Positions 3,131 through 59,248 of a stretch of 64,000 nt of DNA are shown here, piece after piece. The stretch lies in contig OU452198.1 in the NCBI GenBank assembly GCA_911728435.2, forward strand, positions 9,334,001 through 9,398,000. The letters are read 5' to 3'. The notes below the pieces were generated by a model. That model saw only the letters and a list, made by a program, of their open reading frames with translations, did not search any database and was not told where the DNA came from. Numbering within the stretch: position 1 is the first letter of the stretch; each line of letters opens with the position of its first letter. Origin of the DNA: Apoderus coryli. Taxonomy: Eukaryota; Arthropoda; Insecta; Coleoptera; Attelabidae. The translations under genes were made by a program, and so were the position numbers.

Positions 3131-3487
3131 AAAATTTTTAAAGCCATAGTATTGTGCGATATGCTTAGTTTTTTTACGGCAACAAAATCACGTTAATACA
3201 GCCAATCAGCTTCTCCTACCAAGGGCAAAACAAATTCCCACTTCTCACACCAAATTGCTTCGTATTCCAGCTCCGCAATTCCAAAAATGGACACATCTAT
3301 CCTGAATAAGAAATGTACAGCTTGCTCACTGCTAAATGACAAAGAATGAATAACAACCATAACAGATTTAATATAATATGAGATCCCATTTTTGGTGCAA
3401 TCTTAATAATATATCTCGAAACATATTACTAAATTGTTAGATTATTTCATAGGGTAGATGACAAAGAAAACACCAGAACTATTCAAA

Positions 3488-3529
3488 AATGCGACGTTTC
3501 GCAGCTATATTGCTGCTTCCTCAGGCACT
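3488..3529 (-). ncRNA. Hammerhead ribozyme motif (arm copy)
   Basis: On the minus strand: helix I AGTGC, core CTGAGGA, stem-loop GCAGC-AATATA-GCTGC, GAAAC, cleavage triplet GTC, then GCATT pairing with AGTGC. All core residues fit CUGANGA...GAAA. ACGT after GAAA is self-complementary, so helix III would need a dimer. Confidence 0.7.
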
Positions 3530-3969
3530 ACAATGAAAATAAACAAATTACACAAACTTACAATTAAGTATAGTAAAATAGAATTCACTATGTTTAAATT
3601 ACGACACAGAAAGGATACATAAAAATGTAAAAAACATGAATAATTAAAATTACCTTAAGCGTAGTCAGGTACAAAAAAACAAACAAACAATAATAATAAT
3701 CTTCAATGATACAAAATTTATCGATACTATGAAATTGATGATCCTAATATAGACAAAATTATTCACTCATGGATCATGAATTATTCTCATAGTATGTAGT
3801 ACGTGTCGATAAATTTTGTTTCATTGAAGATTATTATACGTGTTGTACCATTTTTAAATGTAATGTTATTGTTATGTGTATGTTTTTCTTAGTTCAATGA
3901 CTAAATAAGGTAATTAGTTGACTGATTTCCTATTGTATTATATTGATTTTATTTATATTTGATTATATA

Positions 3970-4010
3970 GGCCCTGAAGAAGTTCACGTACAGTGAACGA
4001 AACGTTGGCT
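3970..4010 (+). ncRNA. Hammerhead ribozyme motif (central copy)
   Basis: Helix I GGCC pairs with GGCT (4007-4010). The core CTGAAGA is at 3974-3980, helix II is a perfect GTTCAC-GTACA-GTGAAC, GAAAC is at 3999-4003, and the cleavage triplet GTT is at 4004-4006. AACGTT after the GAA is self-complementary. The core is intact. Confidence 0.75.
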
Positions 4011-4252
4011 GAAATTTAGAAGGTTTTTTATTTGTCCAATACTGACAATTTCCTGTTATCCGTTGAATTTCTTGGACAAAATTCAGTGCATGATTATTAT
4101 TATTGTTTGTTTTTTTTTGTACTTGACTACGCTAAAGGTAATTTTAATTATTGATGTTTTTTACATTTTTTTATGGATTCTTTCTGTGTCGTAATTTAAA
4201 TATAGTGAATTGTAGTTTAGTATAGTTAATATTATAAGTGTATTTTCATTGT

Positions 4253-4294
4253 AGTGCCTGAGGAAGCTGCAATATAGCTGCGAAACGTCGCATT
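4253..4294 (+). ncRNA. Hammerhead ribozyme motif (arm copy)
   Basis: Mate of the motif at 3488. AGTGC (4253-4257) pairs with GCATT (4290-4294). The core is CTGAGGA, the helix II arms are AGCT/AGCT, then GAAAC and cleavage triplet GTC (4287-4289). The core is intact. Confidence 0.75.
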
Positions 4295-4530
4295 TTAGAA
4301 TAGTTCTGGTGTTTTCTTTGTCCTCAACCCTATGAAATAATCTAAGAATTCGTATTTGCGAAGGACACTAAAATCAGAACATATTACTAAATATACATAC
4401 ATTTGTTTTGTCGAATCGATATTCTTATTGACAAGTCTCCTCATGTTATTGGACTAATTCCTTAAAATGTATTCGTTTATCGTCCACATAATCGGCTCTG
4501 TGATATAACATGAATTGTAATCCATTCCAG

Positions 4531-4860: not shown

Positions 4861-5467
4861 GTAAGTGACAGGCTTATGTTATTATTAAAAGTATACCTAT
4901 AGATTTGTATAGATTAAGACCGTCAAACTCTAGGAAAAGGCTAAACTACATAGTTTTATTAGGGTTTTCATGTATAGGATTTTTAATGTCAGTTGGAATC
5001 GCTAAACAAAATTTCGGCTGCATACATCTAGCAGTTTGGAGGCATGGGCGTATCATTATTTTAGCGAACATAAAGGATAATTTATACCGGGTGGCCGATT
5101 TATCTTGATACAGCCTTATATCTTAAAAACGGCACATTTTTCAGAAAAAAAGTTCAAATAAAAGTTGTTTCCTATTATGGGGGAAAAACAATGGTGGCAC
5201 CCATTGGCGAGTTTGTCAACTGTTACGAGGTTATCTCAAGGTCAACTCGTTTTTTCTTACTGGAAACATATATTTTTCATTAGCGAATCGGATTCGTCAT
5301 AAAAAAGCAAAGAACTTTTGTTAATAAATTTTTGTGATTCCGATAATAATTTGGATTAATTACTCTGTTTTTTGTTCTTGGAACTGAGGTTCAACAATTT
5401 AAACATCATCAACTGATTATTTGATTTTAGATAATTATTTAAATGCCATTATTTATTTTTTCTTTGT

Positions 5468-5507
5468 TTCAACGTTTCGACAAGACCACCTGTCTTCATC
5501 AGGAATT
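5468..5507 (-). ncRNA. Hammerhead ribozyme motif, solo
   Basis: Minus strand: CTGATGA (5496-5502), helix II AAGAC-AGGTG-GTCTT, GAAAC (5474-5478), GTT. Helix I is short (TTC with GAA, 3 bp). The core is consensus. It sits in repeat DNA upstream of the transposase at 5845. Confidence 0.65.
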
Positions 5508-5844
5508 TAGTAAAATAGGTTCTCGTAAACTTCTTCGCAACACAGTAATAAAATGCATGGGATATAGCATTTTATCTGCAAAACCACAGGTGCTATCAAC
5601 AAAGCTTTTTCTGAGATAGAAAGGTATTCCATATTTTGTTAAAAATAGCAAAATTGATAACAGACTAACGAACGTACCTACCGATCGTCATTCGGAAGTA
5701 AAAGTTAATAATTCCTCATACCAAATATTTAATTTTTATTTTTTTTATACTTAAAGAAAAAAAGTAGTAAATTTTTCATCTGGTAAACATTTTTGCACAT
5801 TTACAGCAAAAAAACAATAAACAGTAAGTTAGTTTTGAGAAAAT

Positions 5845-11000: not shown

Positions 11001-11907
11001 TATATCTAATTACATGTTTATATAAATTATTGTACAATTTAATTTTAAGAATATAGCGGAAAACAAAGTTTTTGTTATAATATCAAATTATTATTCATTC
11101 ATATTTAATTAAAAATTAATCATTCTTATTATTATTTATTTCAGTAAAAACTATTTAATCTCATACAAGAAAGTACAACTGATATACTAATACTCTTGTG
11201 CATGCTGCAGGTCACCCGGTATAAATCAGAACCAATCGAGACTCCCAACTGCCGACCGATGCTGAGCGAGATAGACAATATTTCGGGTAGATTTCATAGT
11301 GGTATACTGTCCTTTAAATATACTGCGGTATCACGTAGGACGACGAAAGAGATGAAAGTTGATTTTAAGAAGGATTTTAAGAAGGAAATAAATATCAGTG
11401 TAAAATTAGCAATGATCCAAAAATACCTGTATGACAACAATTAAAAACTTGCTGATTTTTAGTACTAAGTAAGTTACACCAAAGATTAATCTACACAATA
11501 GATAGTCAGCCCAATGCATTAAAATCAGAACATCTCTAAGTATGCCTGCCACTACGTGGCGTAGACTAGCGTGTAAAGCATATAGCAGTATTGTCACAGC
11601 CAGAAACCGTTTTGTAGTTTATTAATATCAAAAACAAAACGCAGCGTATAACAATTATTTAGATCATTTGCAACAGATATGCACCGGCAATGCTGTATTG
11701 TCAGAGAGAGAAATTGATGAAATTCTGTATTAATCTGGAGGGGATACGCAGGGAGGGTAGAAAAAAAAACAAGCGAATGTGGTGTGTGTCGTGCTGTTGC
11801 CAATTCGTCGGTAAAAGAAACACAGAGGGTGATTTATTACAAGTACAGTATTGAAATAAAAGCCTAATCTCTATGAATTAAATTTAATATAATAATATTT
11901 AATCCAT
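8061..11907. other. No gene recognised; AT-rich with small GC-richer islands
   Basis: I see nothing assignable. Points of note: a GC-richer island at 8400-8600 on whose strands short frames are open but unrecognised; an acidic tail-like frame ending LGQDDDSETDDNDDTQVDEI at about 9100-9160; another GC-richer patch at 10,720-10,850; and an exon-like stretch at 11,211-11,286 discussed among the findings. Confidence 0.5.
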
Positions 11908-11951
11908 GTCATACATGTTTCAAGACTAGACCAGTCCCATGATCAGTGGCG
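11908..11951 (-). ncRNA. Decayed hammerhead-like motif
   Basis: The minus strand reads CTGATCA (core G changed to C), a stem GACT-GGTCT-AGTC, then GAAACATGTA. It is clearly homologous to the motif at 14,934, but the CUGANGA core is broken, so it is probably inactive. Confidence 0.5.
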
Positions 11952-14933
11952 AACAATCGTTAAATGAAAAGCTTTTAGATAGAAACATACTTTTGACTAA
12001 ATATTTCACGTAGACAATGTGGCAAAGATGTAACAAGATTGCTGTAGATCTTATAATACCTATAATAAAAAAATTATCAGTGCTACCTATATTATATTAG
12101 GTATACCTATTATAATAGTCTGTCTCTTCATCAGGTATAAGTTCCACTTTATCGGTTTAGGTACTTAAATTTTACTTCATTTTAATGTTTCTTCGGGTAA
12201 ATAATAAGTTCGGTAGGAATAGGGCTTTGGGTATGAAACAAAAAAGATAGAAAATAGAAATTTGATATAGGGGTAGTTCTAAGCATTTACAAGTTTGTGA
12301 CGTGTAGCGATTTTCGATGCCGCCCCCGGAGGTATACATGAGGGCGGCGCAATGCCGTTTTAAATATCTCGTTTCGCTTTCTTGGAAAATAAAAAATTAT
12401 AACTGATAACTGAAACTTAGTACTTAATACGTGGGCGTAAGAGGTAAGCTCACTTCACAGGTCTCTATTAATGAAAGAAAGTTAACATTTTGAGCAACTG
12501 CGTAAAATTAAATGTATCCGTTTGGTGGGTAGTTTTGATTACAATAAGTCGGTGCCAAGCCCAAGCCCGAAACAAAATAAATCTATATTTACCTACCACC
12601 TATTTGGCTTGGTACCGACTATTATGTGCATTGTTGTCTTTTGAATGATATTTGTATTTTGTTATTTTTCGTATTTTTTATTAGTTCTTTTGACAGCTCT
12701 GGTGTCATCAATACACCTGTATCCCGAATTGCACCAAATTGCGATGCTATTGAACAAGCATATAATCCTAAATATAATATTCTTTTTGAACTACCTGTAT
12801 CTTGAAAACCAAGCCGTAGCGGACCCATGTACATATGAAATTTGTATCTTAAAATTAGTCAAAGAATCACCCTTTAAAGTTTGTACAAGTACTTATGCAA
12901 CACCCTGTATACATAGATACTTTGATTTACAATTTGCAAATCTGTCAAACTAGGTAATGCTGTTTTTTTTTATTTACTTTCAAATATGGTGTTATGTAAT
13001 TGTATTCAAATTAAATGTTTGGGGATGATATTTACGAGTTTTATTTTTTTATATAGAGAAACTGTTATTCAGTTTTTAAGGATCAATCTGAAGCAGACGA
13101 TTGTACTTGTTAAAACATGAAAAAAGTTATTGTCGTGATACTTTTAACACCCTGTTGGTGGGTTTTTAAAGCTTTTTACGAAACGTGTTAACAATACAAT
13201 CTACATAAATCGTTAGTTTTTTAAAGTTTTATGATCATTGCACAAAAACCAATATTAGGGAGACTGTAAGTTTTTTTTCAATTCGGCGTTGCAGAATTTG
13301 AACCTAATTGTGATAATTGTGTTATTTTACTAGTATAGATATTTTTGAGTAAATTAATTCGGTTATAATCGATGAGTAGAATCTTTGGAGTAAAATACAT
13401 TTCACAAAAACCCTGAACCATATTTCTCAATAGATTTAAATTTTCATTAAAAACAGATTAAAAATTCTAATTTTTTACATCCTGCATTTCGAAACCGTAT
13501 TTTTTTAAATAATTATTGTCATGCTGGAAATTTCAAACCTTATTTACTTCAGCAACTTGTAAAAAGCACAGCCTTTTTAATATTAACATTTCTTAAAATC
13601 GATATTACGCGATAACGATGACTTTCTATCAATATCACAGAAGGATACATTTATTACGTATATAATTTGTTAGATTTTACATCTCCGAATTGAAACACAC
13701 GCAAAAAATGTGCATAAAAAAGTTAGGGTAGCATTTCACGCCTGTATGCCCCTTTAATTTACCCGCCTCTGAGATTTATTTTTTCATAATGTTAACGACA
13801 AGTTGAATCTGCTGTTTGAGTTTGATCCTTAAAACTGAATCAGGTAATAACCGGAAGTCCTATCTATAACGCCAAATTTCGTTAATTTAAATATAACTTT
13901 TTGATGCATCCTTATATCCGAAATTTAAAATTAAATGACTAAAATAATATTATTTTAGTCATTTAAAATTATTGTCTAAAACATTTAATAAACCAGCCCT
14001 GTATATTTATACTATTATAGTAATTTCTTTTATTTTCGTCCATACACATTAATCTTTGCGTAGATAGGTATACGTATACCATATAATTTTAAACAAAAAA
14101 CACTGCTGCACAGTAGTACATATATGATACCTATAATATAAAAACAAACTCCCACCTCGTAGGGGAAAGTATACTCGTCCTTGTCTAACATTGCCCATAT
14201 GATTATTTTATTTCAACACAATACATATAACGCCATCTACAATTTCCATGGTTGCATGTTTTTCTAATAGATGTAGCTCGTGTCGAGACAGTTTCAATTT
14301 TTGTTTTATTTCCCATATACGCTGACTATCTATTGTGTAGATTAATCTTTGGTTACACTATAGATGTTGATAAAAAAGGTAAAAACATCAAAAGAAATTG
14401 CATATTCGAAAACCGTAGTCAAAAATGGTGTATCGCTTGATGTAGCTAGGTAGCAATCAAATGTTTTCAAAAATAATCAAAGTCCTGCACATGCATATTT
14501 CCACACTTTTTTTCATTGTACGAGTATGTGTCTGCTGTCAATTGAAAATTTTCAATGCAATGAGAATAAATAGGTTTTACACAGTTTTAATTGTTATTCT
14601 CAAATCGACCGTGTATTGTTTATTATTTTTTTTTTGTTCGAAGTTTTGTATTTCAGCCTAGCCAAAGCCTCTATATTCGCAAAAAATAGATAAATCAAAC
14701 GCAATCCATTCAAATGCCATACTGCGAATTCCCATAAAGGACCAATAAAAAAAATAATACACAAAAGTGCGCAAGTTAATTCAAACGAGTGTTGTTTGTA
14801 TTTCTATAGTTTGTCCTATTATAATGTTAATATTTATTAATTTGAGAAAGTAGTCCATTCTTAAGTGAAGGTGTAATTTTAGTGTTTAAATGAAAGTCAA
14901 ATCTCCACAAAATAAGTTTAATAGAATTTATCA
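11952..14933. other. No gene recognised
   Basis: AT-rich DNA without convincing coding frames. It contains a GC-rich hairpin-like patch near 12,317-12,355 (GCCGCCC/GGGCGGC) and a 15-base inverted repeat, AGTCGGTGCCAAGCC at 12,547 against 12,606-12,620. Fragments of the CACCCTGTATA repeat class occur near 12,900 and 14,000. Confidence 0.5.
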
Positions 14934-14978
14934 GTCATACATGTTTCGGGACTAGACCAGTCCGACCATCAGTAGCAA
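14934..14978 (-). ncRNA. Hammerhead-like motif with one core change
   Basis: Minus strand: CTGATGG (the last core A is G), helix II GGACT-GGTCT-AGTCC, CGAAAC, then ATGTA. ACATGT is self-complementary. It is closely related to 11,908. Activity is doubtful because of the core change. Confidence 0.55.
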
Positions 14979-18129: not shown

Positions 18130-18565
18130 TTTTCAGTTTACTTTTTTTCTTGGGGTGTTCGGTTCTTATAAAAACTCCTTTTTACACAACTTCTCTACAT
18201 AAAAATATTCATATTTATTTTCATCACTATCTATATAAGAAGAAGAAGAACTAATAGTTCCATCTTTTTAAATAAAAATATATTTTATTATGTTTGAATG
18301 TTTTAAATGTGTTTGTAAATATAATGAAAATTGTTTGTGATTTTATTGATATTGACGTATTGGAATTTGTGTTAGAAAGGAAAGGGAAAAAAAATGTTGT
18401 TTCAACCTGAGGAAGTTACTAATTAGTAACGAAACGTCGTTTGTTATGATTTTTGTTTGATAGTGACCAAAATAAATATGAATATTTTTATGTAGAGAAG
18501 TTGTGTAAAGAGGAATTTTTATAAGAACCGAACACCTCAAGAAAAAAAGTAAGCTGAAAAAAATA
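18130..18565. mobile_element. Palindromic element with internal hammerhead
   Basis: Arms at 18,130-18,222 and 18,472-18,564 are inverted copies (shared blocks include GTGTTCGGTTCTTATAAAAA and CACAACTTCTCTACATAAAA). Between them lies a hammerhead on the + strand. The same arms, with the interior lost, occur at 48,700-48,878 next to a Penelope endonuclease fragment. Confidence 0.65.
18403..18443 (+). ncRNA. Hammerhead ribozyme motif
   Basis: CTGAGGA (18,407-18,413), helix II a perfect GTTACT-AATT-AGTAAC, GAAAC (18,431-18,435), cleavage triplet GTC. Helix I is weak (AAC with GTT, 3 bp). The core is intact. Confidence 0.7.
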
Positions 18566-18665
18566 ATAATAATGTAAATTTTTTACTAGTCGATTCTCTT
18601 GGGAATGAGGTTCAGATGCAACTAGTTTTTTGAAATAATATTTATTTCTTCTCACATTTTTTTTC

Positions 18666-18707
18666 ATACAACGTTTCGACAACATTACGTTGTCTTCTTC
18701 AGGCAAC
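18666..18707 (-). ncRNA. Hammerhead ribozyme motif
   Basis: Minus strand: CTGAAGA (18,696-18,702), helix II ACAAC-GTAAT-GTTGT, CGAAAC, triplet GTT. Helix I is about 3 bp. The core is intact. Confidence 0.7.
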
Positions 18708-18912
18708 AAAATCTTCTTCTTTTTTTTATAATTTCTTACATCTTTTCATTTGACCAAGGCATTAATATGTACCAGAAATTCAGATTATTTATTTTTTCAG
18801 GAAAAACAATGTCCAATACTGAACAGAAATAATCTGAATTTCTGGTACATATTAATGCCTTGGTCAAATGAAAAGATGTTGTAAGAAATTATAAAACAAA
18901 GAAGAAGGTTCT

Positions 18913-18955
18913 GTTGCCTGAAGAAGAAAACGTAATGTTGTCGAAACGTGAAAAA
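18913..18955 (+). ncRNA. Hammerhead motif with altered cleavage triplet
   Basis: Mate of 18,666. CTGAAGA (18,918-18,924), helix II AAAAC/GTTGT, CGAAAC (18,942-18,947), but the triplet is GTG instead of GTT. NUG is not cleaved by hammerheads, so this arm is probably inactive. Confidence 0.65.
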
Positions 18956-19039
18956 AAAATGTGACATGAAATAAATATTATTTCAAAAAACTAGTTTCAT
19001 CTGAACCTCATTCCCAAGAAAATCGACTAGTAAAAAATT

Positions 19040-28590: not shown

Positions 28591-29370
28591 TGAATGAATG
28601 TTATGATTCTTATGCTTATTATTCTTGCACATACGTGCACATGATGAAGTTTATTTTGTCATTCTACTGGAAATTCAAAATAATGACTACCACAACTATC
28701 ATAGTAATTTTTTTAAATTGATCACTGAGCAACATATTTTTCCACAACTGGCCTGTCTTCTTGGTAGATCCTTAATTCGTACATAAAAATTGCACAATGT
28801 GGGCAGCAGACAGCAGGACTTTAGGACCAGATTAATCTAAAATTCATTTCGATTTTGAAGAACTTGATATATTCATATATTCCGAAAAATTTGACCTCAC
28901 CTGAAATGAATCATCGACACCCTGTACAGAATTCCTGAATCGAAACTGGGTATGAGTTGCCACACTATGGAACATACTGAGCGGCGATGCCAGCCACGCA
29001 CTTGGAAGTAGCAGGGAAGTCTACTTCTACTAGTAGTTTGGGAATCAGGCAGTACTTCCAGAGGCTGCTGTCTAAATGCATTATGGAGGCCCAATAGTGT
29101 TTCGATGAAGTAATTATACTGGTCTTACAATGAACCGAATAGCAGAAGGATTTCTCATCGAACAACAAAACAAATTAAAGTTTATTTTACTGACAACAAG
29201 ATGTTTTTGATGACATCTAGTGTGAGCAGGCAATATGCCCGGTGAAACACAGTTCAAACATGAAGGCCGGACAAGAAGTAACAACTCCATTAATCCTATT
29301 GCCACACTATATACGCGCGAATTCCCTGGCGGAAGGATTTATGTACGAATTGCTTGTTACATAAAGTAAC
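28591..29370. other. Unassigned repeat-like DNA
   Basis: Short open frames on the minus strand (28,897-29,305) resemble no family I know. CACCCTGTACAG at about 28,920 marks a repeat border. The hammerhead at 29,371 is at its right edge. Confidence 0.4.
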
Positions 29371-29413
29371 CACCACTGATGAGTTGTGGATAAACGAAAC
29401 GGCCCGTCTGGTG
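29371..29413 (+). ncRNA. Hammerhead ribozyme, monomer-type
   Basis: CACCA (29,371-29,375) pairs with TGGTG (29,409-29,413) in helix I. CTGATGA (29,376-29,382), helix II GTT/AAC, GAAA (29,396-29,399), then helix III CG-GCC-CG with a real loop, and cleavage after GTC at 29,408. Unlike the others, helix III can close in cis, so this copy could cleave as a monomer. Confidence 0.7.
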
Positions 29414-36434: not shown

Positions 36435-37400
36435 TTAAAAAGTACAATTGGTAAATGTTAAATTGGAAGAAGAGTTTGCTGAAGTTGACGGATTGTTAAT
36501 TTCCACTGTTGAAGAAATTCCTCGCATGGTGTTGATTATTTCACCATGGCGTTCTTGGTTAATATTCAAGTACGGTTTAATTGAATTAGAGCTCCTATGT
36601 CCTGTTATTTTTATTAATTGCTGTTTAGGAATTCCTTTATTTGCCAAATGGCTAACTGCAGTTGATCTGTTCGAATGATTGGATATCTTTTTACACTTAG
36701 TGTCCAAACCAATAGCTTGCGCGGATAATTTGGTCCACATATTAATTGTGTTTTTGCCTACCGGTATATTGTCAAACCATGTGTCACTTTCGGATTTCCA
36801 GAAACGATTTGGTCTCAAGAATAGGCGACTGGAAGAAATATTTTTCCCCCTTTTGGACAATAATTTATGGAATAACCGAACAGGGCATGCACTTTCGTTT
36901 GTAATATTTGGAACAAGCCACTTACTATTTGTACAACTTTTCGATTCTCCGTGACATGTTTTACTGAATATTGGATTGTAGTCAATTCTGTTGGTTGGCG
37001 TTCCATCATAATCTATAAGGCAATCAGCTGGTTCACCACCTCGCCAAGCTAACTCAACAGCTACAATTTGGTAAAAAAACAATTTGTAAACCTTCTGGTG
37101 TACATTCATCCCATAATCCAATGATTCGAGCCAAATCACTTGAACTCAAATTTGGTGAAATGCATTTTCGTTTGTTTGGACCCTGCTGTAATCTTTTACG
37201 TTTTGCATTTCTTGCATCTCGAGCATTTTTGAATATCACACTGGTAAACGGGTCGAATACAATTTTGAAGTCATTGAAGTATTTTTCCTGGAGTAGCCTA
37301 CTCGTAGTATTCCAAATTGTTTTTACAGTTACAGTAAAAATTATGCAAACTCGGTTCAGCATTCAGTTCGTATTCTCTGGTCGCACAAAACTCGAGAAAT
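36435..37400 (-). pseudogene. Crypton-like tyrosine recombinase
   Basis: Two overlapping minus-strand frames form one DUF3504-type (Crypton-derived) recombinase. The upstream frame (to 37,054) has FDPFTSVIFKNARDARNAKR and IIGLWDECTPEGLQ. The downstream 234-residue frame (36,435-37,139) continues FFYQIVAVELAWRGGEP and carries a full tyrosine-recombinase tetrad: R33 (AWRGGE), H155-x-x-R158 (HSNRST), H181 (TGHRSS) and Y190 (IKPYLN). The break is a frame slip in a T/A run near 37,065-37,075. Upstream of 37,362 one stop precedes KYFSSFVRPENTN-like sequence. About 40 bases of similar sequence (GTCAGTTTGACGTTTAAT) lie outside both ends, at 36,345 and 37,516. Recombinases of this group integrate circular DNA or are domesticated in zinc-finger genes. 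This copy looks recently decayed. Confidence 0.8.
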
Positions 37401-40040: not shown

Positions 40041-40045
40041 CTAGA

Positions 40046-40487
40046 TGACGGCGCAGGTCATAAGTTATATAGAAATAATTATAAATAATTAAACAATTGG
40101 AATAGCACAAAACGATATAGCAGCGGGACTTACCAGCTTAGGGCTGCTGTTGCTAATGCGACGGTTGGGGGCCCCCGGAGTATCCTTCCTGCTCCACACA
40201 CACTTTTACATCGGACATATATCACGTTGTAACATTTCTATGCATAAATGCATCACTAATATATAGTTCAATTACAATAATTAACAATAGGAATATAATG
40301 CGAAATTTAACTGTTTTTTAAAATGGACAAAAATCAACGGTCTTTTTTTCCAACGAACGATTTAATGGCGAAGGCGCGCATGATGAATGCGCAATCGGCG
40401 GCGCTGTTGCCCGCTGTTTTGTCTAAAGTTTTGTGCTAAAAATGATATGCAACCAAACAATCAAAATATACAAAACCTGCGTCAACA
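40046..40487 (-). repeat. 3' LTR of the BEL element
   Basis: 442 bases, identical to the other LTR except C for G at 40,350. Bounded by CTAGA on the outside. On the coding strand the preceding bases are the polypurine tract (rc of 40,488-40,500). Confidence 0.95.
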
Positions 40488-40672: not shown

Positions 40673-43600
40673 TTAATTAGGCAAGGGACAGAGTTTAACC
40701 ACCGGTCGCCTTAACACTCCATGCGAGGTCCTCAGCGTAACCACACGCACAATACCGTCGGACCCCGGATGAAGCGTCACAACGCGAGCAAGTGGCCACT
40801 GCAATGGAGGTGCGTTTTCGGATTTTACTATGACCAAATCGTCAATTTTAAGGGTTTTGCTATGTTTGGTCCACTTATGTCTCTGCTGAAGGGTATGTAA
40901 ATATTCGCAATGCCACCTTTTCCAGAAATCGGCATGCATTTTTTGCACTAGCTGCCAACGATTCAATTGATTTAATTGCAAATGGGACAAGTCTGGGTCG
41001 GGTAGGCTATTTAGAGGGGCTAACGTTAAGAAATGTCCTGGAGTTAAAGGACACAAATCGTTCGGGTCTGAACTTTGGGCACACAAAGGTCGAGAGTTCA
41101 ACAGGGCCTCAATTTGGGTAAGTAAAGTGTTAAACTCCTCATAGGTAAGCGTTTGCATGCCAATCACTCGATGGATATGAGTCTTTACAGACTTTACTGC
41201 GGCTTCACTTAAGCCATTAAAATGTGGCGAACCGGGAGGACTATGATGCCACTTTATCTGTAATGATGCGGAAGCGTAATTAGCATACTCTAAAAGAAGA
41301 GAATTTGCCCCAACAAAATTTGTACCGCAATCAGAATACAAGTCTGAAACTACACCCCGCCGCGCAACGAAACGTCGAAATGCAGCCAAGAATGCGTCCG
41401 CTGACAAGGATGTAACTAATTCTAAGTGAACAGCCTTAACTGCGGCACACACGAAAACACAAATCCACGATTTAAAAGTGCGTGAACCACGATAGCGACA
41501 AATGGAGACTGCAAATGGACCAGCGAAATCTACAGTGGTGTGGGTAAAAGCTTTGACTTGGCCGATTCGAAAAGACGGTAAGTCGGCCATATAAGGAAAA
41601 ACCGATTTGGGACGAGCTCGAAGGCATCGAATACAACGAGAAAGGCAATGGTCTATCGCACGACGAGAAGACAGTATCCAAAACTGCTGCGACAAAAGAT
41701 ATTGAAGCGTTTTAAACCCTGGATGCAAATTCAACAAATGAACCTCCTCGATAATACGTTCGGTTAGGCGATGTGATCTAGGTAAAAGAAGTGGATGTTT
41801 AGCATCAAATGACAAGTTCGAGTTTCTAAGACGTCCGCCCACCCTAAGGGTTCCATCCGTATCAACGAAGAGGGCTAATTTACGAAGTGGTTTAGGCAGT
41901 ATTCGATTTTTACGAATTTTATTGAGAATATCTGAAAATTGTTGCTTTTGAACAAAGAGAACGAGAGCTTTAAGAGCACGAAATAGTTCAAGATTAGAAA
42001 AAGAACCAGTTACTCTAATACGTGACTGGCAATTTAGGCGAAAACGAAAACAACAAGCGATAATCGATTTGATCTTTCGAAGAGACGAGAATTTTGACAA
42101 GAGTAAGTCGACAAAATTTATTTCCATAGTGGACTCAAAGGATAAGAGCTTTTGTTCATTTAAAACTTCCGCCGAGTCAAACGAAGTTTCATTTGCACAA
42201 AATTCCAGCGGCAAGTTTTCCATGCACAGCCACGCGGGGCCTTTCCACCACAGTTCATGTTCCACGAGCTTCATAGGTGTTAGTCCGCGAGAAACGCAAT
42301 CTGCTGGGTTTTCAGGCGAAGATACATGATGCCAATGGAAACTGGGTAAAAATTCTTGAATATGACTTACGCGATTAGCGACAAATGTTTTTAACAAATG
42401 AGGGGACATGGCCAACCAGCACAAAACTATTTGACTATCCGACCAAGCAAAAATACGACTACAAGTTAGCTGGTCTTGGTAAGCATTTCGAACAAAAATT
42501 AAGGCATCTGTCAAAAGTTTGGCAGCACACAACTCCAAACGAGGAAGCGAAAGAATTTTTAGTGGAGCGATTTTAGATTTTCCATATAAAAGGTAGGAAT
42601 TAATGTTACCAAAAACATCTTTAGTGCGAAGGTATACGACAGCACCGTAGCCAACGGTAGAAGCGTCTGCAAACCCATGAAGTTCGCAATGTGTCAATTT
42701 CACAGGTATCAAACATCGCGGGATACGAATATTGCAAAGAAATTTTAATTCCTGGCGAAATTGCGTCCAACTGTCAATGATTGATTGACTGGGCGGATGG
42801 TCCCAGGGCATCTTTAACAACCACAGTTTTTGCATAATGCCTTTAACAAAGGTAGAAATGGGAGAGACGAATCCCAAAGGATCATAAATACGAGCGATTT
42901 CTGACAATATATTTCTTTTAGTACAAGGACGGTCAATAAAATGGTAATTATATGTAAAATAATCAGCTTCGGGTGTCCATTGAAGTCCCAGAACCTTTAT
43001 AAATTGCGGCTCATCGAGATCAAACGTTATAGGATGTTGGGCTTGTTCCGAGACCTTACGAAGAATTTCACAACTATTGCTAGCCCACTTACGTAACTCA
43101 AATCCACCACCACGCAACAACGCAATTAAATTCGATTGAAGCTGTAACGCTTCATTAAGAGTGGGCACACTGCAAATGGTATCGTCAATATAGGTATATT
43201 TGAGTAGAACCTCTGAAGCGTCAGGATAAGCTTTGCCATCAGTGTATGCCAATTCACGAAGTACTCGCAGAGCCAAATAGGGCGAAGATGATAAGCCATA
43301 GGTAACCGTATTTAAACGATATTCTTGTACCGGATCATCACGAGAAAATCTCCATAATATTCTCTGAAAATCGCGAAACTCCGGCTTTACCAATATCATT
43401 CGATACATAGCTTTGATATCGGCAACAAACGCAAACGGATGCAAACAAAAACATAGTAGAATCTTTTGAATGTCATTTTGAAGTTTTGGTCCCGCAAATA
43501 GAGTGTCATTCAACGAAATTCCCCTTGAACCTCTCGCACTACCGTCAAACACAACGCGAATTTTGGTAGTAATATTTAAAGGACGAAGTACTGCATGATG

Positions 43601-45937
43601 AGGGATATAATAGACGAAATTTGGTCTCGGTTCATCATTTTTGACAAGCGACATGTGACCCGACTTGAGATAATCTAGCATGAAATCCCTATATTGTTGA
43701 TAGAAATCAGCATTTCTATGAAAACGAGATTCCAAAACAACCAATCGTCGAAGAGCTTGATTATAAGTATCGCCTAAATCAGGTGGGCCAGTTCGAAAGG
43801 GAAGAGCAACATTAAATCGACCATTAGCATCCCTTGCAATAGTGGAAGAAAATATCTCCTCACAAATGATATCATCGGAACTGGGAGGGATGTCTACAGC
43901 AACCTCCTCAACTTCCCAAAATTTTTGAACGACGTTCTCAAGAGAGGTGCTCAAGGTAGTGCAGCATGAAAATGAGACAGTAGGATCGATAGGAGGACAC
44001 GAAACCTTTCCGAGTAAAATCCACCCAAAGCAAGTTTCTAGTGCAGAGGGCTGACCGAAAGAACCAATAATTTTTCCAGAACGGAGTATGAATGGGAATA
44101 ACTCTGCACCTAGTAAGGCATCGATCGGTCCTGAAGTATGAAAGCTAGGATCGGCAAGGGTCAAATTTTTCAAATGTGACAACGTATCAATTGGAAATGA
44201 AGCAGCGGGCATATCTGCACTAATTTTTGTTAAAACGATGAAATCTATTGCAAAACTGGGTTCGGGACACGCCACTGGTTTAATAATGCAATGAGTTAAA
44301 CCCCTTGCTGAATTGGAGGACATGTCATTAAGACCGAAAATTCCCGTGGCACATGACCTTCGAGGAATACCAAGACGACGAATACAATTTTCTGTCATGA
44401 AATTCGCTTGTGATGCACTATCAATTAAGACGCGAATTTTCTGGTAATGACCAGCAATGTCTAAAATTTCGACAACGGCAGTTGATAACAATACAGTATT
44501 TGAAGAACTTGAGGTTGCCAATGAAGTTAACGACGGGCTATGAATCGCGGGCTGATTGTTGGTCGAGAATGAATTTGATGTTGGTGCTGAATTTTCTACC
44601 AATCCACCCGCGATACCAAGGGTTTCAATAGGATGTGCATTTACATTAATTGAATGATTTGTAGAAGTGGACTGTATAGGACGATTATTATTTGACGAAC
44701 GATTTGTTTGATTTTGCGACGACGAAACTTTATTAAAGTGTAACAATGTATGGTGACGAGAATTACAAATACGACACGAAAAGGATGAGGTACACGAATT
44801 TAACGCGTGCGAAGGGCGAAGGCGATTCAGGCAAAGTTTATTTTGTTTGGCAAATGAAAATCTATCGAACGAAGACTTAGCCAAAAATTGAGAACATTTA
44901 GTAAGGATGTGATGACCTTTACAACAAGTACAATTGTCGGTAGCAGGAAGCGAGCTAGAAGTGATAAAACTAGAAGTCGATTTTCCATGTGGTGAAAACG
45001 AAATAGTAGTTCGAGAAGGCGAAGATTTGTTTGAACTTTGTGAGGGTCCAGGCAGTATTTGAATCGAAGCGAGAGCCTTACAATGGTCCTGCAAGAAATT
45101 TATTAACTGGTCATAGGTGGGGATATCAGTAGAGCTATATTTCATCTCGAACGCAGTACGTGTATTGGTATCTAACTTTTGTAACAACAAATTAAATAAA
45201 ATAAAACTCCACTGTTCGACCGGAAAATCCAATACCTTCAAGGCCGAAAGATTTTCAGTAAAAGTGTCAACTAACTGCCTTAACAACTGTGGAGAATTGG
45301 ACTTCACAGAAGAGGCTTCTAAAATTTCATTCAAATACCCCGTAGCAAGCAATCGATTATTTTGGTAACGATGTACCAAAGTTTCATAAGCAGTTTTGTA
45401 ATTATTTTCAGTCAGCTTAATAGTTTTCACAAGATTTAACGGTTCTTTAATTACCGAAGTAATTAAATATTGAAATTTTTCGATATCGGACAAACTACCA
45501 TTTTCATGAATCAATTTATTAAACAAATCTATAAACGAAGGCCATGATTTCAAATTTCCGTCGAACACGGGTAGATTGATTTTTGGCAATTTGACGTTTG
45601 TTACTTTAGGAACATCTAACGAGTCAGCAGAGACAGAAGCAGCATTCAGCTTATCATTAATTGCCTTAATTAAATAATAAGACTGGTCAACAGATTGGCG
45701 AACCCCCTCCTGTGCATCGAAAAACTCGTCGCTGTCATCTAAACCAATTATTTGATTGTGTATTTCATAAAATTGTTGCTTAAAATTCTCAAGATCATCG
45801 ACACGATATTTTAAAATAATTCGCCGCTCAGGAGAGGTCTGCGCTTGTTTGGCCAAATCTAAAGTTTCCTTTATTCGATTAAACGAAATCTCCCGTTTTT
45901 TAATCAATTTTTTAATTTTATCATGAACTGTCGACAT
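40673..45937 (-). CDS. BEL/Pao gag-pol polyprotein
   Basis: 1,754 residues in one frame, starting MSTVHDKIKK about 355 bases after the 5' LTR. Order: gag with the DUF1759 domain (about 118-290, VFDGNLKSWPSFIDLF); two zinc knuckles (C336-x2-C-x3-H-x4-C348 and C388-x2-C-x3-H-x4-H400); aspartic protease of the BEL type near 503-509 (VLIDSAS, Ala instead of the usual Gly); reverse transcriptase with YIDD at 916-919; the Pao A17 region (IARIYDPLGFVSP); RNase H (LHGFADAS); integrase (VDFAGPF, YSDCGTNF, then the Glu region); and a DUF5641 tail. It copies the element RNA to DNA and integrates it; Gag would form cytoplasmic particles. There is no envelope frame. The length is normal for the family and I see no stop or frameshift. 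Confidence 0.97.
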   Translation of the reverse strand: MSTVHDKIKKLIKKREISFNRIKETLDLAKQAQTSPERRIILKYRVDDLENFKQQFYEIHNQIIGLDDSDEFFDAQEGVRQSVDQSYYLIKAINDKLNAASVSADSLDVPKVTNVKLPKINLPVFDGNLKSWPSFIDLFNKLIHENGSLSDIEKFQYLITSVIKEPLNLVKTIKLTENNYKTAYETLVHRYQNNRLLATGYLNEILEASSVKSNSPQLLRQLVDTFTENLSALKVLDFPVEQWSFILFNLLLQKLDTNTRTAFEMKYSSTDIPTYDQLINFLQDHCKALASIQILPGPSQSSNKSSPSRTTISFSPHGKSTSSFITSSSLPATDNCTCCKGHHILTKCSQFLAKSSFDRFSFAKQNKLCLNRLRPSHALNSCTSSFSCRICNSRHHTLLHFNKVSSSQNQTNRSSNNNRPIQSTSTNHSINVNAHPIETLGIAGGLVENSAPTSNSFSTNNQPAIHSPSLTSLATSSSSNTVLLSTAVVEILDIAGHYQKIRVLIDSASQANFMTENCIRRLGIPRRSCATGIFGLNDMSSNSARGLTHCIIKPVACPEPSFAIDFIVLTKISADMPAASFPIDTLSHLKNLTLADPSFHTSGPIDALLGAELFPFILRSGKIIGSFGQPSALETCFGWILLGKVSCPPIDPTVSFSCCTTLSTSLENVVQKFWEVEEVAVDIPPSSDDIICEEIFSSTIARDANGRFNVALPFRTGPPDLGDTYNQALRRLVVLESRFHRNADFYQQYRDFMLDYLKSGHMSLVKNDEPRPNFVYYIPHHAVLRPLNITTKIRVVFDGSARGSRGISLNDTLFAGPKLQNDIQKILLCFCLHPFAFVADIKAMYRMILVKPEFRDFQRILWRFSRDDPVQEYRLNTVTYGLSSSPYLALRVLRELAYTDGKAYPDASEVLLKYTYIDDTICSVPTLNEALQLQSNLIALLRGGGFELRKWASNSCEILRKVSEQAQHPITFDLDEPQFIKVLGLQWTPEADYFTYNYHFIDRPCTKRNILSEIARIYDPLGFVSPISTFVKGIMQKLWLLKMPWDHPPSQSIIDSWTQFRQELKFLCNIRIPRCLIPVKLTHCELHGFADASTVGYGAVVYLRTKDVFGNINSYLLYGKSKIAPLKILSLPRLELCAAKLLTDALIFVRNAYQDQLTCSRIFAWSDSQIVLCWLAMSPHLLKTFVANRVSHIQEFLPSFHWHHVSSPENPADCVSRGLTPMKLVEHELWWKGPAWLCMENLPLEFCANETSFDSAEVLNEQKLLSFESTMEINFVDLLLSKFSSLRKIKSIIACCFRFRLNCQSRIRVTGSFSNLELFRALKALVLFVQKQQFSDILNKIRKNRILPKPLRKLALFVDTDGTLRVGGRLRNSNLSFDAKHPLLLPRSHRLTERIIEEVHLLNLHPGFKTLQYLLSQQFWILSSRRAIDHCLSRCIRCLRARPKSVFPYMADLPSFRIGQVKAFTHTTVDFAGPFAVSICRYRGSRTFKSWICVFVCAAVKAVHLELVTSLSADAFLAAFRRFVARRGVVSDLYSDCGTNFVGANSLLLEYANYASASLQIKWHHSPPGSPHFNGLSEAAVKSVKTHIHRVIGMQTLTYEEFNTLLTQIEALLNSRPLCAQSSDPNDLCPLTPGHFLTLAPLNSLPDPDLSHLQLNQLNRWQLVQKMHADFWKRWHCEYLHTLQQRHKWTKHSKTLKIDDLVIVKSENAPPLQWPLARVVTLHPGSDGIVRVVTLRTSHGVLRRPVVKLCPLPN

Positions 45938-46292
45938 TTCGGCGATGTGGCAATCACGCTTGAATCAAACAAATTAATGAGATTTATCACAAAAATAGAA
46001 AAATGCTATTCTAAATCAACCATTAAACTGACCATTCCACTATAGCAGTATAGGGCGAAAAAATAGGTATATGTGTGTGTGCGTGTATCTATTATTTTCA
46101 ATATTATAATAAACAAACAAGTAGGTACATACCTACCTACAAACAAACGTATGAACTTTTTTAATTAAAGAAAGCGAGAGAGATATATATACCTATATAT
46201 TTTATTATTTATTTATAATTAAATAGACAAAAATGGCTGATACAAAGAATTTAAATTCTATCGAATTATCTATCCGGTGAGAAGGATCAGAA

Positions 46293-46734
46293 TGACGGCG
46301 CAGGTCATAAGTTATATAGAAATAATTATAAATAATTAAACAATTGGAATAGCACAAAACGATATAGCAGCGGGACTTACCAGCTTAGGGCTGCTGTTGC
46401 TAATGCGACGGTTGGGGGCCCCCGGAGTATCCTTCCTGCTCCACACACACTTTTACATCGGACATATATCACGTTGTAACATTTCTATGCATAAATGCAT
46501 CACTAATATATAGTTCAATTACAATAATTAACAATAGGAATATAATGCGAAATTTAACTGTTTTTTAAAATGGACAAAAATCAACGGTCTTTTTTTGCAA
46601 CGAACGATTTAATGGCGAAGGCGCGCATGATGAATGCGCAATCGGCGGCGCTGTTGCCCGCTGTTTTGTCTAAAGTTTTGTGCTAAAAATGATATGCAAC
46701 CAAACAATCAAAATATACAAAACCTGCGTCAACA
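46293..46734 (-). repeat. 5' LTR of the BEL element
   Basis: 442 bases, promoter-bearing LTR for the minus-strand element. The leader 45,938-46,292 between it and the ORF is noncoding and includes a TG microsatellite (46,070-46,088). Confidence 0.95.
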
Positions 46735-48204: not shown

Positions 48205-48655
48205 ATTAATTCACTCATTTATTAAGGGTAAGGATGTATGAATATTTAGTGTTGAGTTGGTCAATGTCCGTCCTCTTGCATTTTTTGATGTTGCGGTTTC
48301 TACCATTTGTAAATTTGGTTCCACAAATAAGGTACTAATCTGGTTATAATTAGGTACATGTCCGTCATCCAGATAATGTTCAGCTAACGCACACAATCTT
48401 TTTCCCACCTTACAATCGCTTTTATGTGCTGTAATTCTTTCTTTAAGCACTCTCGATGTCTCACCAATGTATACCTTGTCACAGTCTGAACATGCGATAT
48501 TATAAACTACGTTAGATTGGTCCATGGTTTTGACTTTATTTTTCAACATCGAATATAAGTTACCTATATCGTTTTGGTGTATTTCGGAGCTACAAAGATT
48601 GGTGGTTCATTTTTAAAAATACTCCCAATTTTAGGTGCTCCTGAAATAAGGGATC
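48205..48655 (-). pseudogene. Penelope-like element, GIY-YIG endonuclease domain
   Basis: The 112-residue frame (48,211-48,549) and sequence upstream of its ATG read PIFVAPKYTKTIGNLYS, then NVVYNIACSDCDKVYIGE followed by TSRVLKERI and HKSDC. This is the Penelope-like C-terminal GIY-YIG endonuclease, with the VYxIxC-x2-C variant of the first motif, YIG, the catalytic Arg in TSR and a later Glu/His (LAEHYLDDGH). The reverse transcriptase part is missing: homology stops near 48,655, where a collapsed palindrome begins. A frame change near 48,550 separates the linker from the domain. Penelope-like elements are the retroelements in which hammerheads were described, which makes this fragment relevant to the ribozymes nearby. 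Confidence 0.85.
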
Positions 48656-48675
48656 AAATAATAATATACGAGTAT

Positions 48676-48878
48676 TTATTTTTTTATTATTCTTGAACCG
48701 CTATTCTAATTTTTTTCAGTTTACTTTTTTCCTGGGGTGTTCGGTTCTTATAAAAATTCCTCTTTACAAAACTTCTCTACAGAATAAAGATGAATATTTT
48801 TAAGTAGAGAAGTTTTGTAAAGAGGAATTTTTATAAGAACCGAACACCCCAAGAAAAAAGTAAACTGAACCAAATAAT
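48676..48878. repeat. Collapsed palindrome, partner of 18,130
   Basis: Arms 48,709-48,780 and 48,804-48,870 are inverted copies around 23 bases and match the arms of 18,130-18,565. The hammerhead-bearing interior is gone. It abuts the Penelope fragment. Confidence 0.7.
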
Positions 48879-49030
48879 AATATTTTTCAATGTTTTCAAC
48901 CTGTATTTTTGCATTGTTTAACTCGGTTCTTGATTGTCTATTGAATCCAGTGGACTGTGTATTAAAAAGAATCGTTTTGGTTAACTACAAGAAAGTAGTT
49001 CAATATGTTTAAATTTTTTTTTTAATGTAA

Positions 49031-49139: not shown

Positions 49140-49180
49140 AAGGCTGATGATGGAGCTGGGGAACCGAAACATGTCCCTTT
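49140..49180 (+). ncRNA. Hammerhead ribozyme motif, solo
   Basis: AAGG (49,140-49,143) pairs with CCTT (49,176-49,179). CTGATGA (49,144-49,150), a weak helix II (GG/CC), CGAAAC, ATGTC with cleavage after 49,175. ACATGT is self-complementary. The core is intact. Confidence 0.65.
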
Positions 49181-52257: not shown

Positions 52258-53605
52258 AGTCGTGTTTTTCTAAAGTTTTTGAATTTGTGCTCCATGATAT
52301 TATTATGAGCCATGTTAGGCGTCAGATTCCATCGGTACAACATGGCTTTTTGCCCGGTCGTTCTACGTCAACTAATTAATTGGTTTTAACACAGTTTTTA
52401 ACTGAGCGACTTGATAACGGGGGTCAGGTAGATGTAATCTACACTGATTTTTCTAAAGCCTTTGATAGTCTTGATCATGGTATTCTACTGCGTAAACTGT
52501 GTCGTTATGAACTATCTTATAATTTACTGCTGCTTTTGAAGTCGTATCTGAAGGATAGATTTCAGTATGTGGAAAGTCGAGGATTTCGTTCCGCAAATTT
52601 TAAAGTGTCATCTGGTGTTCCCCAGGGCTCTGTCCTTGGACCATTGTTGTTCCTGTGTTTTATCGATGATATTTCTAGTGGACGACTTCAAAGTATATTT
52701 CTGTCATTAATAGTACTGAAGATTGTTCTCATCTTCAGGACGATTTAAATGTTGTATATGAGTGGTGTGTCCGTAATAATCTTTATCTGAATATTGATAA
52801 ATGTTTTAGTGTTTCCTATACACGGAAAATAAACCCTGTCAAATTTTCATATTGTATAAATAATAGTCCATTAACAACTTGCGATGAGTTTAAAGATTTA
52901 GGTGTTTGGTTTGATGGTAAACTGAGCTTTACTAATCATTACAATAATATAGTTTCAGCATCCTATAGATCTCTGGGTTTTATTTTGCGCAATTCGAAAG
53001 AGTTTGTGACACCTCAAACTCTCATCTTTTCTTTTCAACGCATTTGTCAGATCTAAACTGGAATATGCATCAGTAGTATGGAATCCTATGTATGCCATAC
53101 ATATGAGTAATATTGAACGTATCCAGCGTCGTTTTGCCAAGTTACTGTGGTTTCGGGTTGATGGGGTTTATCCATCCATTGGGTTTCCTCATTATATTCT
53201 GTTAAACCGTTTTAATCTAGTACCATTAAATACTCGGAGAGAATATTCCGCTCTAGTATTGCTCTTTAAGATTATTAATGGACTTCTTGACTGTCCAGAG
53301 ATTTTAAGCCAGATTCCTTTTTGTGTCCCAAATCTACGCACACGTAATAACGGAATCGTATTTTACTTTCCGGCCCCGCGTACTAATTTGTTGTTGCGTT
53401 CCCCTTTATATTTTATGTGCCATACTTGTAACTCTGTGTCCGAGCAAATCGATATTTTTAATTCAACTTTGTCTTGTATAAAAAATATATTTCTTAGAAT
53501 ATAAATTTAGTGTTAGATATTAAGAATTTACTGTAATTTTTCCTGCCCTTTAATTGGATTATTTATCTGTCTGGGCAGTGTATCTTAAATAAATAAATAA
53601 ATTTG
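52258..53605 (+). pseudogene. Non-LTR retrotransposon, reverse transcriptase and 3' end
   Basis: The frame begins in the reverse transcriptase: SHVRRQIPSVQHGFLPGRST, then DVIYTDFSKAFDSLDHGILL, SSGVPQGSVLGPLLF and FIDDISSG. A deletion then removes the start of FADD: only GACGACTTCAAAGTATA-like sequence (DDFKVY) remains in a shifted frame, followed by VINSTEDCSHLQDDLN, YEWCVRNNLYLNIDKC and VRSKLEYASVVWNPMY. The last part is open at 53,088-53,504 (RIQRRFAKLLWFRV). It ends in a TAAA-type tail (53,590-53,611). This is Jockey/CR1-like, 5'-truncated and dead. A miniature transposon follows immediately. Confidence 0.9.
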
Positions 53606-57310: not shown

Positions 57311-58120
57311 GTTGTAGGTAATTAAAATATCTACAACTTTTGTATCGACACTTTTTTCACATAACCTGAAAATGTATGTGAAAAATTCGAATAACCGAGT
57401 TTTTGGTTTTTTATTTTTTCACAAAATTTGGTGAAAACTTACCTTTGTATGCCCCAAACATACAGTAATTTTTTTGATTTAAAATATTCATTTTTTCACC
57501 TTATTTTGAATTAATATCGAAAAAGCACCCTTATTTTCAATCGAAAATTCTCACGTCAAAATATCTGCTTTTTTAAAAAAGTTGGTGTGTTTTTTGTTTG
57601 TTGAAATCTCTAATTTCTGATGGTCTAAAAAAAATATACACTACTATGGTAAATGTTCTCAGAAAATGCAAATAATGAAAAAAACTCGAATCCGAATATT
57701 TTTTTTTCTAATTACTTCTCCATTAGTTTTTGTCTCTTTGATGGCATTTCTTCATCGTTAGATTCGACAAACCTTCCCGATTTTAGTGGATCTTCGAACT
57801 CTTCAAGGCCATGACCGTCTTCGTCTCCAAGCTTCCAGCCCCAATCTGTTGCTGTCAGTTCGTTACCCAGCCAAGTCTGAAGCTGATAATATGCCCTGTA
57901 ACAATGTTGTTCTGTTGCACCTTCTGTGGGTGGGAGATTGGCCAATATGAAAGAAGATTTAATTCTTGCCAATTGGCATTTTTGAAATCTTACTTGGTTC
58001 AGTGTTATATCATTTTTACATTTTATAGAAATATTCCATTATACGTGGAGTTTATCATGTAATGATAAATAAAATTCGTCTGCTCCACAAACAATTCTTT
58101 ATTTATTTATAATATTTCGT

Positions 58121-58170
58121 CAGCGACCAGACATGTTTTGAGAGACACAGCTCTCATCATCAGTGGTCAT
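58121..58170 (-). ncRNA. Hammerhead motif, core mutated
   Basis: Mate of 58,524 on the minus strand: TGACCA, CTGATGA (58,157-58,163), helix II GAGA/TCTC, then CAAAAC instead of CGAAAC, ATGTC, TGGTCG. The G of GAAA is lost, so cleavage is not expected. Confidence 0.65.
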
Positions 58171-58523
58171 TAAAATGGGGGGAATTTAATACAGAATTAG
58201 ATATTTGTTTGAATCTGGAATACAATAATAAAATGTCATAGGTGTTCTCACTTATGATTGATACTGGACTTACCATTTGTGAAAAAATATTTTTTATAAA
58301 AACTTAAATATTAATATTTATATGAGGAAAATACTATTATAACTTGTTTAATTTAACAACATTACACTGTTGTGTAAATTTAAATTTGTATTTATTCTTC
58401 ATCTTAAACAGAATTACAAAATTCACAATGAATTGCGTGTTGCACTAACACCTATGACATTTTATTATTGTATTCCAGATTCAAACAAATATTTAATTCT
58501 GTATTAAATTCCCCCCATTTTAA

Positions 58524-58569
58524 TGACCACTGATGATGAGAGCTGTGTCTCTCGAAACATGTCTGGTCG
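58524..58569 (+). ncRNA. Hammerhead ribozyme, best-preserved copy
   Basis: Helix I TGACCA (58,524-58,529) pairs with TGGTCG (58,564-58,569). CTGATGA (58,530-58,536), helix II GAGAGC-TGTG-TCTC type, CGAAAC (58,553-58,558), ATGTC with cleavage after 58,563. All core positions are consensus; ACATGT would pair with another molecule as helix III. Confidence 0.8.
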
Positions 58570-59248
58570 CTGACGAAGTATTATAAATAAATAAAGAATT
58601 GTTTGTGGAGCAGACGAATTTTATTTATTATTTATCATTATTTTTACATTTATTAATAGATTTGATTAATTGTAATCCATTTTTTTATATCTTCTTTTTT
58701 ATAAAAAATATTGGCCAAATTTGACACATCTTTATCGGCTAATAAAGAGTTGACGATACTTTTCTTTCCTTTTCGGCAAATCCAGATGTTGTATCGCATC
58801 CAGAAAAACAATGGAGAAATGCAACGATATTTTTTAAGGATTCATCTTTGAAACTATTAGATCACTCTTTGCATTTTCTGAGAACATTTACCATAGTAGT
58901 GTATATTTTTTTATACCATCAGAAAGTAGAAATTTCAACGAACAAAAAACACACCAACTTTTTTAAAAAAGCAGATATTTTGACGTGAGAATTATCGATT
59001 GAAAATTAGGGTGCTTTTTTGATATTAAGTCAAAATAAGGTGAAAAAATGAATATTTTAAAAAATTACTGTATGTTTGGGACATACAAAGGTAAGTTTTC
59101 ACCAAATTTCGTGAAAAAATATTTTTTTTTGCAAAAGATAAAAATTAAAAATCAAAAACTCGGTTATTCGAATTTTTCACATAAATTTTGAGGTTATGTG
59201 AAAAAAGTGTCGATACAAAAGTTGTAGATCTTTTTATTACCTACAATT

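Follow-up and report, generated by a model that had tools for sequence, protein, structure and literature searches.

Sixteen hammerhead-type sites in a window of the Apoderus coryli genome (the whole 64-kb stretch analyzed, on contig C1 of an assembly of 428 Mb in 129 contigs) are very probably carried by retrotransposons, with two lineages of Penelope-like elements (PLEs) bearing minimal type I hammerheads in their pseudo-LTRs (pLTRs) and further sites in two other kinds of repeat. An earlier note on this DNA had described the sites as one dispersed set. They sort instead into four repeat families, which judged from sequence are two PLE lineages (A and B), one retrozyme-like repeat (D) and one repeat with a changed core (C).

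Results

All 16 sites were found at the positions and on the strands reported when the sequences were read, and the five helix I pairings named with them were all present. A loose pattern (CTGANGA...GAAA) matched the window 19 times, some matches overlapping, against a mean of 3.82 and a maximum of 9 in 100 dinucleotide shuffles. The full descriptor comprised CTGANGA, 0–1 extra nucleotides, helix II of at least 3 bp and then GAAA, together with a palindromic or real helix III, U-H and helix I of at least 3 bp. It hit the window 7 times, whereas 300 dinucleotide shuffles yielded 0.07 hits on average and never more than 2; the reversed, uncomplemented window gave 0 hits. The intact sites by this descriptor were 3488(-), 3970(+), 5468(-), 18403(+), 18666(-), 29371(+) and 58524(+), with helix I just 3 bp long in three of the seven (5468, 18403 and 18666), and the other 9 of the 16 failed it. 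The count of about sixteen copies given in the earlier note therefore stands for recognizable copies but not for intact ones, which number 7, the remaining 9 being damaged or changed (Table 1).

Table 1. Hammerhead-type sites and associated features in the window
Feature	Position	Strand	Score or remark
Family A hammerhead, descriptor-intact (3488)	3485..3534	-	36.9 bits, E=5.6e-8
Family A hammerhead, descriptor-intact (3970)	3964..4014	+	60.4 bits, E=9.2e-15
Family A hammerhead, helix II damaged, third pair broken (4253)	4248..4297	+	38.3 bits
Family A hammerhead, descriptor-intact (5468)	5463..5512	-	E=4e-9
Family A hammerhead, descriptor-intact (18403)	18397..18446	+	E=6.1e-9
Family A hammerhead, descriptor-intact (18666)	18662..18712	-	in 18559-19058 palindrome; E=7.8e-14
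Family A hammerhead (18913)	18908..18958	+	in 18559-19058 palindrome; E=1.8e-6
Head-to-head family A pLTR fragments	3420..4392	.	arms 3432-3701 and 4092-4350
Family B relic, changed core/CTGANGA (11908)	11895..11947	-	
Family B relic, changed core/CTGANGA (14934)	14920..14972	-	
Family B hammerhead, weak helix II	49140..49176	+	GTGGAG box after, at 49205
Family B hammerhead, AAAA for GAAA (58121)	58118..58166	-	
Family B hammerhead, descriptor-intact (site of finding)	58524..58569	+	
Head-to-head family B pLTRs	58012..58651	.	arms 58061-58246 and 58447-58632, 98%
Family C motif, T for C3	21845..21881	-	head-to-head with 22341
Family C motif, T for C3	22341..22380	+	head-to-head with 21845
Family C motif, T for C3	51855..51906	-	21.3 bits, E=0.0018
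Inverted piece of family D unit, directly before hammerhead	29167..29370	-	
Family D hammerhead, type I with helices I, II and III	29371..29413	+	RF00163 28.9 bits
GIY-YIG endonuclease remnant of PLE	48214..48606	-	PF01541, E=7.3e-5
Repeat beside GIY-YIG remnant, matching both arms of 18119-18571 element	48656..48882	.	no hammerhead core found

Families A, C and D were counted across the whole genome. Pattern A occurred exactly at 628+678 places (the same pattern read backwards at 0+0), the family D motif at 895 places within 3 mismatches (468+427; backward 0), and the family C motif at 2,963 near-uniform places within 2 mismatches (1,420+1,543; backward 0).

Family B has the form CTGATGA-T-(helix II)-GAAACAUGU, with a palindromic ACAUGU for helix III, and accounts for five sites in the window, two of them relics; at 49140(+) helix II is 2 bp long by our reading. 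Among 14 family B sequences 91.1% of positions were paired, with 18 double-change cells against 5.6 when shuffled and at most 4 when slid. The element that carries this family emerged from a sample of contig C1 (20 evenly spaced 10-kb stretches), in which the descriptor gave 7 hits against 0.12 shuffled, two of them being a pair at locus L060. Here a 918-aa open frame (minus strand, 3958-6714) had RVT_1 as its sole Pfam listing above cutoff, and YVDD and GIY-YIG motifs were seen in it by eye. Two stretches identical over 447 nt lie 3,624 nt apart at this locus, each with a sense family B hammerhead, one before the frame and one after it, and 91 nt separate the predicted cut from the ATG that follows it. 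A near-identical copy of the frame lies directly upstream in tandem. Searching the genome with the protein gave at least 55 matches, 50 of the 4,046 first-look candidates being scored, and in a large protein database it had 6 relatives, the best at 40% identity over 72%. Both window copies at 58 kb were matched by the L060 pLTR, at 70 and 74% identity (E 1.3e-7 and 4.7e-7). A GTGGAG...ACG box follows the cut at 58524, 58121(-) and 49140, as do 5 of the 8 such boxes found in copies of the sample. By its predicted protein and repeats, family B is a PLE in which an RT/GIY-YIG frame lies between pLTRs with sense hammerheads.

Family A has the form CTGANGA-A-G(helix II)C-GAAACGU, with a palindromic ACGU for helix III, and accounts for seven sites in the window, of which 18913(+) has lost helix I and reads UG where cleavage would occur. 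In families A and B there is usually a single additional nucleotide between A9 and helix II; an extra A is also present in a viroid hammerhead. The second helix II pair, tallied in 62 distinct 31-mers from 100 pattern A places listed, was UA in 21, GC in 17, AU in 12, CG in 3 and GU in 2, so that 55 of 62 were paired. In a set of 58 distinct sites with flanks, 7 of them from the window, U-H followed CGAAACG in 56 (UU 31, UC 17, UA 8), the exceptions being one UG and one GC, and helix I had a mean length of 2.90 bp against 1.83 bp with partners re-dealt (2,000 trials, sd 0.15, largest 2.36). Covariation in 41 chosen sequences was strong: 80.7% of cells were paired against 58.3 shuffled, double-change cells numbered 111 against 46 shuffled and at most 47 slid, and the covariation score was 0.587 against 0.201 shuffled and at most 0.202 slid. 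Because the sequences are related by descent the shuffles overstate the significance of these values and of those for family B, and the slid controls keep that relatedness. The fourth helix I pair was poor (unpaired in 22 of the 41), and pairs changed on both sides were no more numerous than in shuffles (9 against 8.0, a count reached by 74 of 500). A model built from loci outside the window (R1) gave all seven family A sites at E<2e-6, followed by 51855(-) at E=0.0018 and 39247(-) at E=0.064. The view that these are real hammerhead-type sequences rather than chance matches is thus upheld by covariation far over controls on whole-genome sets.

The carriers of family A are seen as remnants. The GIY-YIG remnant in the window (48214-48606) had no relatives in the large protein database and no hammerhead was found downstream of it, nor was a hammerhead core found in the repeat beside it (Table 1). 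Its relatives at four other places in the genome (L065, L001, L069 and L002/L003, which both cover one place) each have a sense hammerhead of family A, or one resembling it, 538-674 nt downstream; the hammerheads of L065 and L069 are variants of family A, and RT remnants are present at both loci. No intact element and no direct pLTR pair was seen for family A, and these remnants suggest that it is a second PLE lineage.

Four pairs of sites in the window are head-to-head with the hammerheads outward: 3488/4253, 18666/18913, 58121/58524 and 21845/22341. The first is bounded by a 15-bp duplication, AACATATTACTAAAT, at 3420-3434 and 4378-4392, with a one-sided tail of 27 nt, and the hammerhead at 3970 sits between the two arms of its inverted repeat (3432-4350). 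The family B pair is bounded by a 12-bp duplication, ATTTTTACATTT, at 58012-58023 and 58640-58651, with a one-sided tail of about 37 nt; 12 or more shared bases were found in 4 of 500 trials with random flank pairs. No clear duplication was found in the flanks of the 18559-19058 pair, and around the element at 18119-18571, whose arms (18119-18231 and 18459-18571) flank the hammerhead at 18403, the flank duplication was a simple repeat only. Among 16 close pairs of neighboring PLE frames, drawn from 50 of 55 rows, 10 were head-to-head, 6 direct and 0 tail-to-tail, and among 100 family A places listed the pairs within 2 kb were head-to-head in 5 cases and direct in 1. A larger inverted repeat (57312-57678 / 58862-59246, 87.5%) encloses the family B pair.

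In the fetched loci family D is a head-to-tail repeat with a unit of about 339 nt and long pairing beyond helix I. Locus L074 had a 339-nt self-overlap at 91%, tandem pieces were present in L084 and others, and helix II gains a fourth pair through a C present in most of the places listed. The unit folds strongly (-106.3 kcal/mol for 339 nt, z -4.57), the predicted core in these folds differing from the hammerhead core. When 21 loci (20 fetched and the window) were read by eye, a minus piece preceded a plus piece in 11 (L070, L073, L075, L077, L078, L081, L083, L085, L086, L088 and the window) and the reverse order occurred in none; at L080 a palindromic stem-loop left the orientation ambiguous. 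The flanks shared a repeat of 13 bp at L086 and of 12 bp at L070, longer than the largest of 400 swapped controls (11), which the other 18 of 20 insertions did not exceed; a 10-bp repeat at L076 was not counted as it overlaps the element's own end. By a manual count, 12 of 32 uncut 3' ends fell at +107 to +117, just past a stem-loop. The site at 29371 is, as far as its sequence can tell, a fragment of this retrozyme-like repeat of about 339 nt with a normal type I hammerhead.

Family C, of the form TTGATGATGG...CGAAACGTYGT, has T in place of C3 in all 12 copies read, which include the three in the window and count L002 and L003, a single place, separately; no helix I was found in the copies read. 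At L090 (C1:1226900-1229900) a unit of about 302 nt is tandem on both strands and also head-to-head, and among 74 places listed on C1 the pairs within 2 kb were head-to-head in 5 cases, direct in 4 and tail-to-tail in none. Known hammerheads require C3, and with T in its place the ribozyme core of family C is taken as probably inactive.

Rfam covariance models gave no hammerhead in the whole window at the gathering score and none up to E=10, an outcome that the earlier note had named as counting against its reading. We do not take this miss as a refutation because the family A and B copies are without a normal helix III. The window's best match, RF00163 at 29370-29414, reached 28.9 bits (E=1.7e-5, gathering 34) when 201 bases were searched alone; nothing hammerhead-like was listed for 58480-58620, and RF00163 was listed in one of eight family D loci (L070, 29.8 bits, below gathering). 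As these scores are below gathering, no Rfam membership is claimed and the sequences are termed hammerhead-type, those of A and B minimal. Families A, B and D fit a CUGANGA and GAAA core with helices I and II, and family C does not. Helix III is real in family D and a palindrome only in A and B, where it may serve as helix III in dimers. Thermodynamic folding did not choose the hammerhead core for 18403, 49140 or 29371, and in dimer folds the palindromic helix III was absent, which neither supports nor excludes a double hammerhead.

Several further features were observed in the window. Matches to mir-2513, MIR530 and MIR2599 at 18746-18871 lie inside the palindrome between two family A copies and were not taken for microRNAs. 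A tRNA-like stretch at 30009-30079 (+) scored 31.6 bits in Rfam, and ARAGORN found no tRNA in the window. A 1,763-aa open frame at 40676-45964 (-) appears by eye to be a BEL/Pao-type LTR retrotransposon polyprotein, and identical 300-nt repeats (40045-40344 and 46292-46591) flank it as the LTRs of a recent insertion would. A tyrosine recombinase with DUF3504 at 36438-37145 (-) is perhaps part of a Crypton-like element. Transposase-like frames, mariner-like by eye, lie at 5839-6510 (+), with a DUF4817 helix-turn-helix, and at 24946-25293 (-), and a reverse transcriptase remnant at 52380-53501 (+), with RVT_1 in 52380-52745, is a LINE fragment by eye.

Discussion

A mechanism may be proposed for the PLE hammerheads. 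In a tandem PLE RNA each pLTR would fold helices I and II round the catalytic core, and two copies could supply the missing helix III by pairing with each other at the palindrome, ACGU or ACAUGU. Unit-length RNA would then result from cleavage after U-H, and in the intact family B element the ATG would be preceded by a leader of 91 nt. Beside the sequences, covariation, PLE placement and insertion anatomy that we observed, this cleavage, dimer pairing and unit-length processing are what we infer, partly from reviews. New copies would be made by target-primed reverse transcription at AT-rich sites, as described in the literature, and would often be 5'-truncated and joined head-to-head, a course of events that would give pairs of pLTRs with outward hammerheads, to which most of the sites belong.

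The ribozyme may matter little for movement, given what is reported in the available parts of a study of a lizard PLE, where hammerhead mutants left in vitro insertion unaffected and no reads ended at the presumed cut (PMC11167929). An alternative explanation could be that the hairpin is kept for another step of the PLE cycle, such as binding of the PLE protein or the start of reverse transcription, with self-cleavage little used, and both lizard results agree with this, as does dimer folding without support for helix III. A binding hairpin would not need U-H, which was kept in 56 of 58 family A sites, nor would it need helix I to covary beside the core, and we consider this explanation unlikely. 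Far less probable is an origin of the palindromic pairs as DNA transposons or foldback elements with incidental hammerhead-like hairpins. Inverted repeats are numerous in the window and one surrounds the family B pair, but the same hammerhead occurs in direct repeats of an intact RT/GIY-YIG element, and the inversions were all head-to-head in the sets examined, as for Penelope in the sections available of a published account (PMC3846280); for these reasons a DNA-transposon origin was set aside. Chance matches to a short motif can be dismissed as wildly improbable, since isolated random hits do happen (0.07 per window, the descriptor hit at L061 probably being one) but the descriptor excess, the genome-wide pattern counts, the conserved U-H, the covariation and the window-free model all oppose them, and a hit equal to the family D site (29376) arose just 1 time in 3,944 shuffles.

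Retrotransposon-carried hammerheads, the reading we prefer, are of known kinds. Minimal hammerheads without helix III are described in PLEs and in thousands of dispersed copies, and according to the title of the Lunse paper cited in the same reviews PLE hammerheads cleave as dimers (PMC6155905, PMC7761336, PMC6466107). Families A and B resemble the minimal type I hammerheads of PLEs (Cervera and de la Pena 2014; Lunse, Weinberg and Breaker 2017) in their CUGANGA/GAAA core with helices I and II, and likewise in the palindrome-reduced helix III, the pLTR location and the thousands of dispersed copies (PMC6155905, PMC7761336, PMC6466107, PMC11167929); against the published descriptions, in such parts as were available, we can name no structural difference. 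Since these forms are already described in reviews, this genome adds a new occurrence to known kinds. The insertions recall Penelope of Adineta vaga, for which the available sections report inverted pLTRs, an optional 31-bp tail, 8-10 bp duplications and head-to-head as the commonest arrangement (PMC3846280). The pLTRs, head-to-head inverted copies, tail and target-site duplications are shared, whereas the duplications here are longer, at 12-15 bp. The word "ribozyme" is absent from PMC3846280, and the role of the minimal PLE hammerhead is called a mystery in one review, in the part available (PMC7761336).

Family D resembles animal non-LTR retrozymes as described in the accessible portions of two papers, having a 339-nt tandem unit within the published range of 150-400 (PMC7229834, PMC7761336), a type I hammerhead with helix III, strongly self-paired RNA and no reading frame recognized in the unit (PMC7229834). 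It differs from them in being present mostly as fragments of one to two units, often head-to-head, and family C has the same layout as the non-LTR retrozymes with a changed core, by the same portions of PMC7229834. Neither "inverted" nor "head-to-head" occurs in the text of PMC7229834, and no paper combining "retrozyme" with "head-to-head" was found in the literature searched, where three papers do combine "retrozyme" with "Penelope" and "inverted repeat". What is possibly new is that families C and D share the head-to-head-only inversion of PLEs in the samples seen. Family D presumably would spread via a small circular RNA.

One review, in the passages available, goes no further than to call PLEs the likely movers of retrozymes, on the ground of their co-occurrence (PMC7761336), and the head-to-head-only copies of C and D in the samples seen support this published guess. 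We tentatively advance the reading that this genome's own PLE enzymes mobilize the retrozyme-like families C and D, a reading we think somewhat more likely to be wrong than right. It draws on the head-to-head-only inversions, the 12- and 13-bp flank repeats in 2 of 20 family D insertions, and the family D 3' ends, whose position at +107 to +117 recalls, by analogy, the internal start of PLE reverse transcription reported in the portion available of PMC11167929. Another reverse transcriptase could produce such inversions by snap-back synthesis on RNA with strong pairing, and the head-to-head counts come from small samples and from the places listed, all of them in PLEs and families C and D; our caution about movement by PLE enzymes is set accordingly. 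If such movement were the case, hammerhead circles would be parasites of PLEs, and family C would still be mobile after the change to its ribozyme core.

One genome thus holds autonomous PLEs with minimal hammerheads together with retrozyme-like repeats with normal or changed hammerheads, and the PLE and retrozyme-like families share one odd insertion signature in it. With an intact PLE at hand, these families would make both the role of the hammerhead and the mobilization of retrozymes testable.
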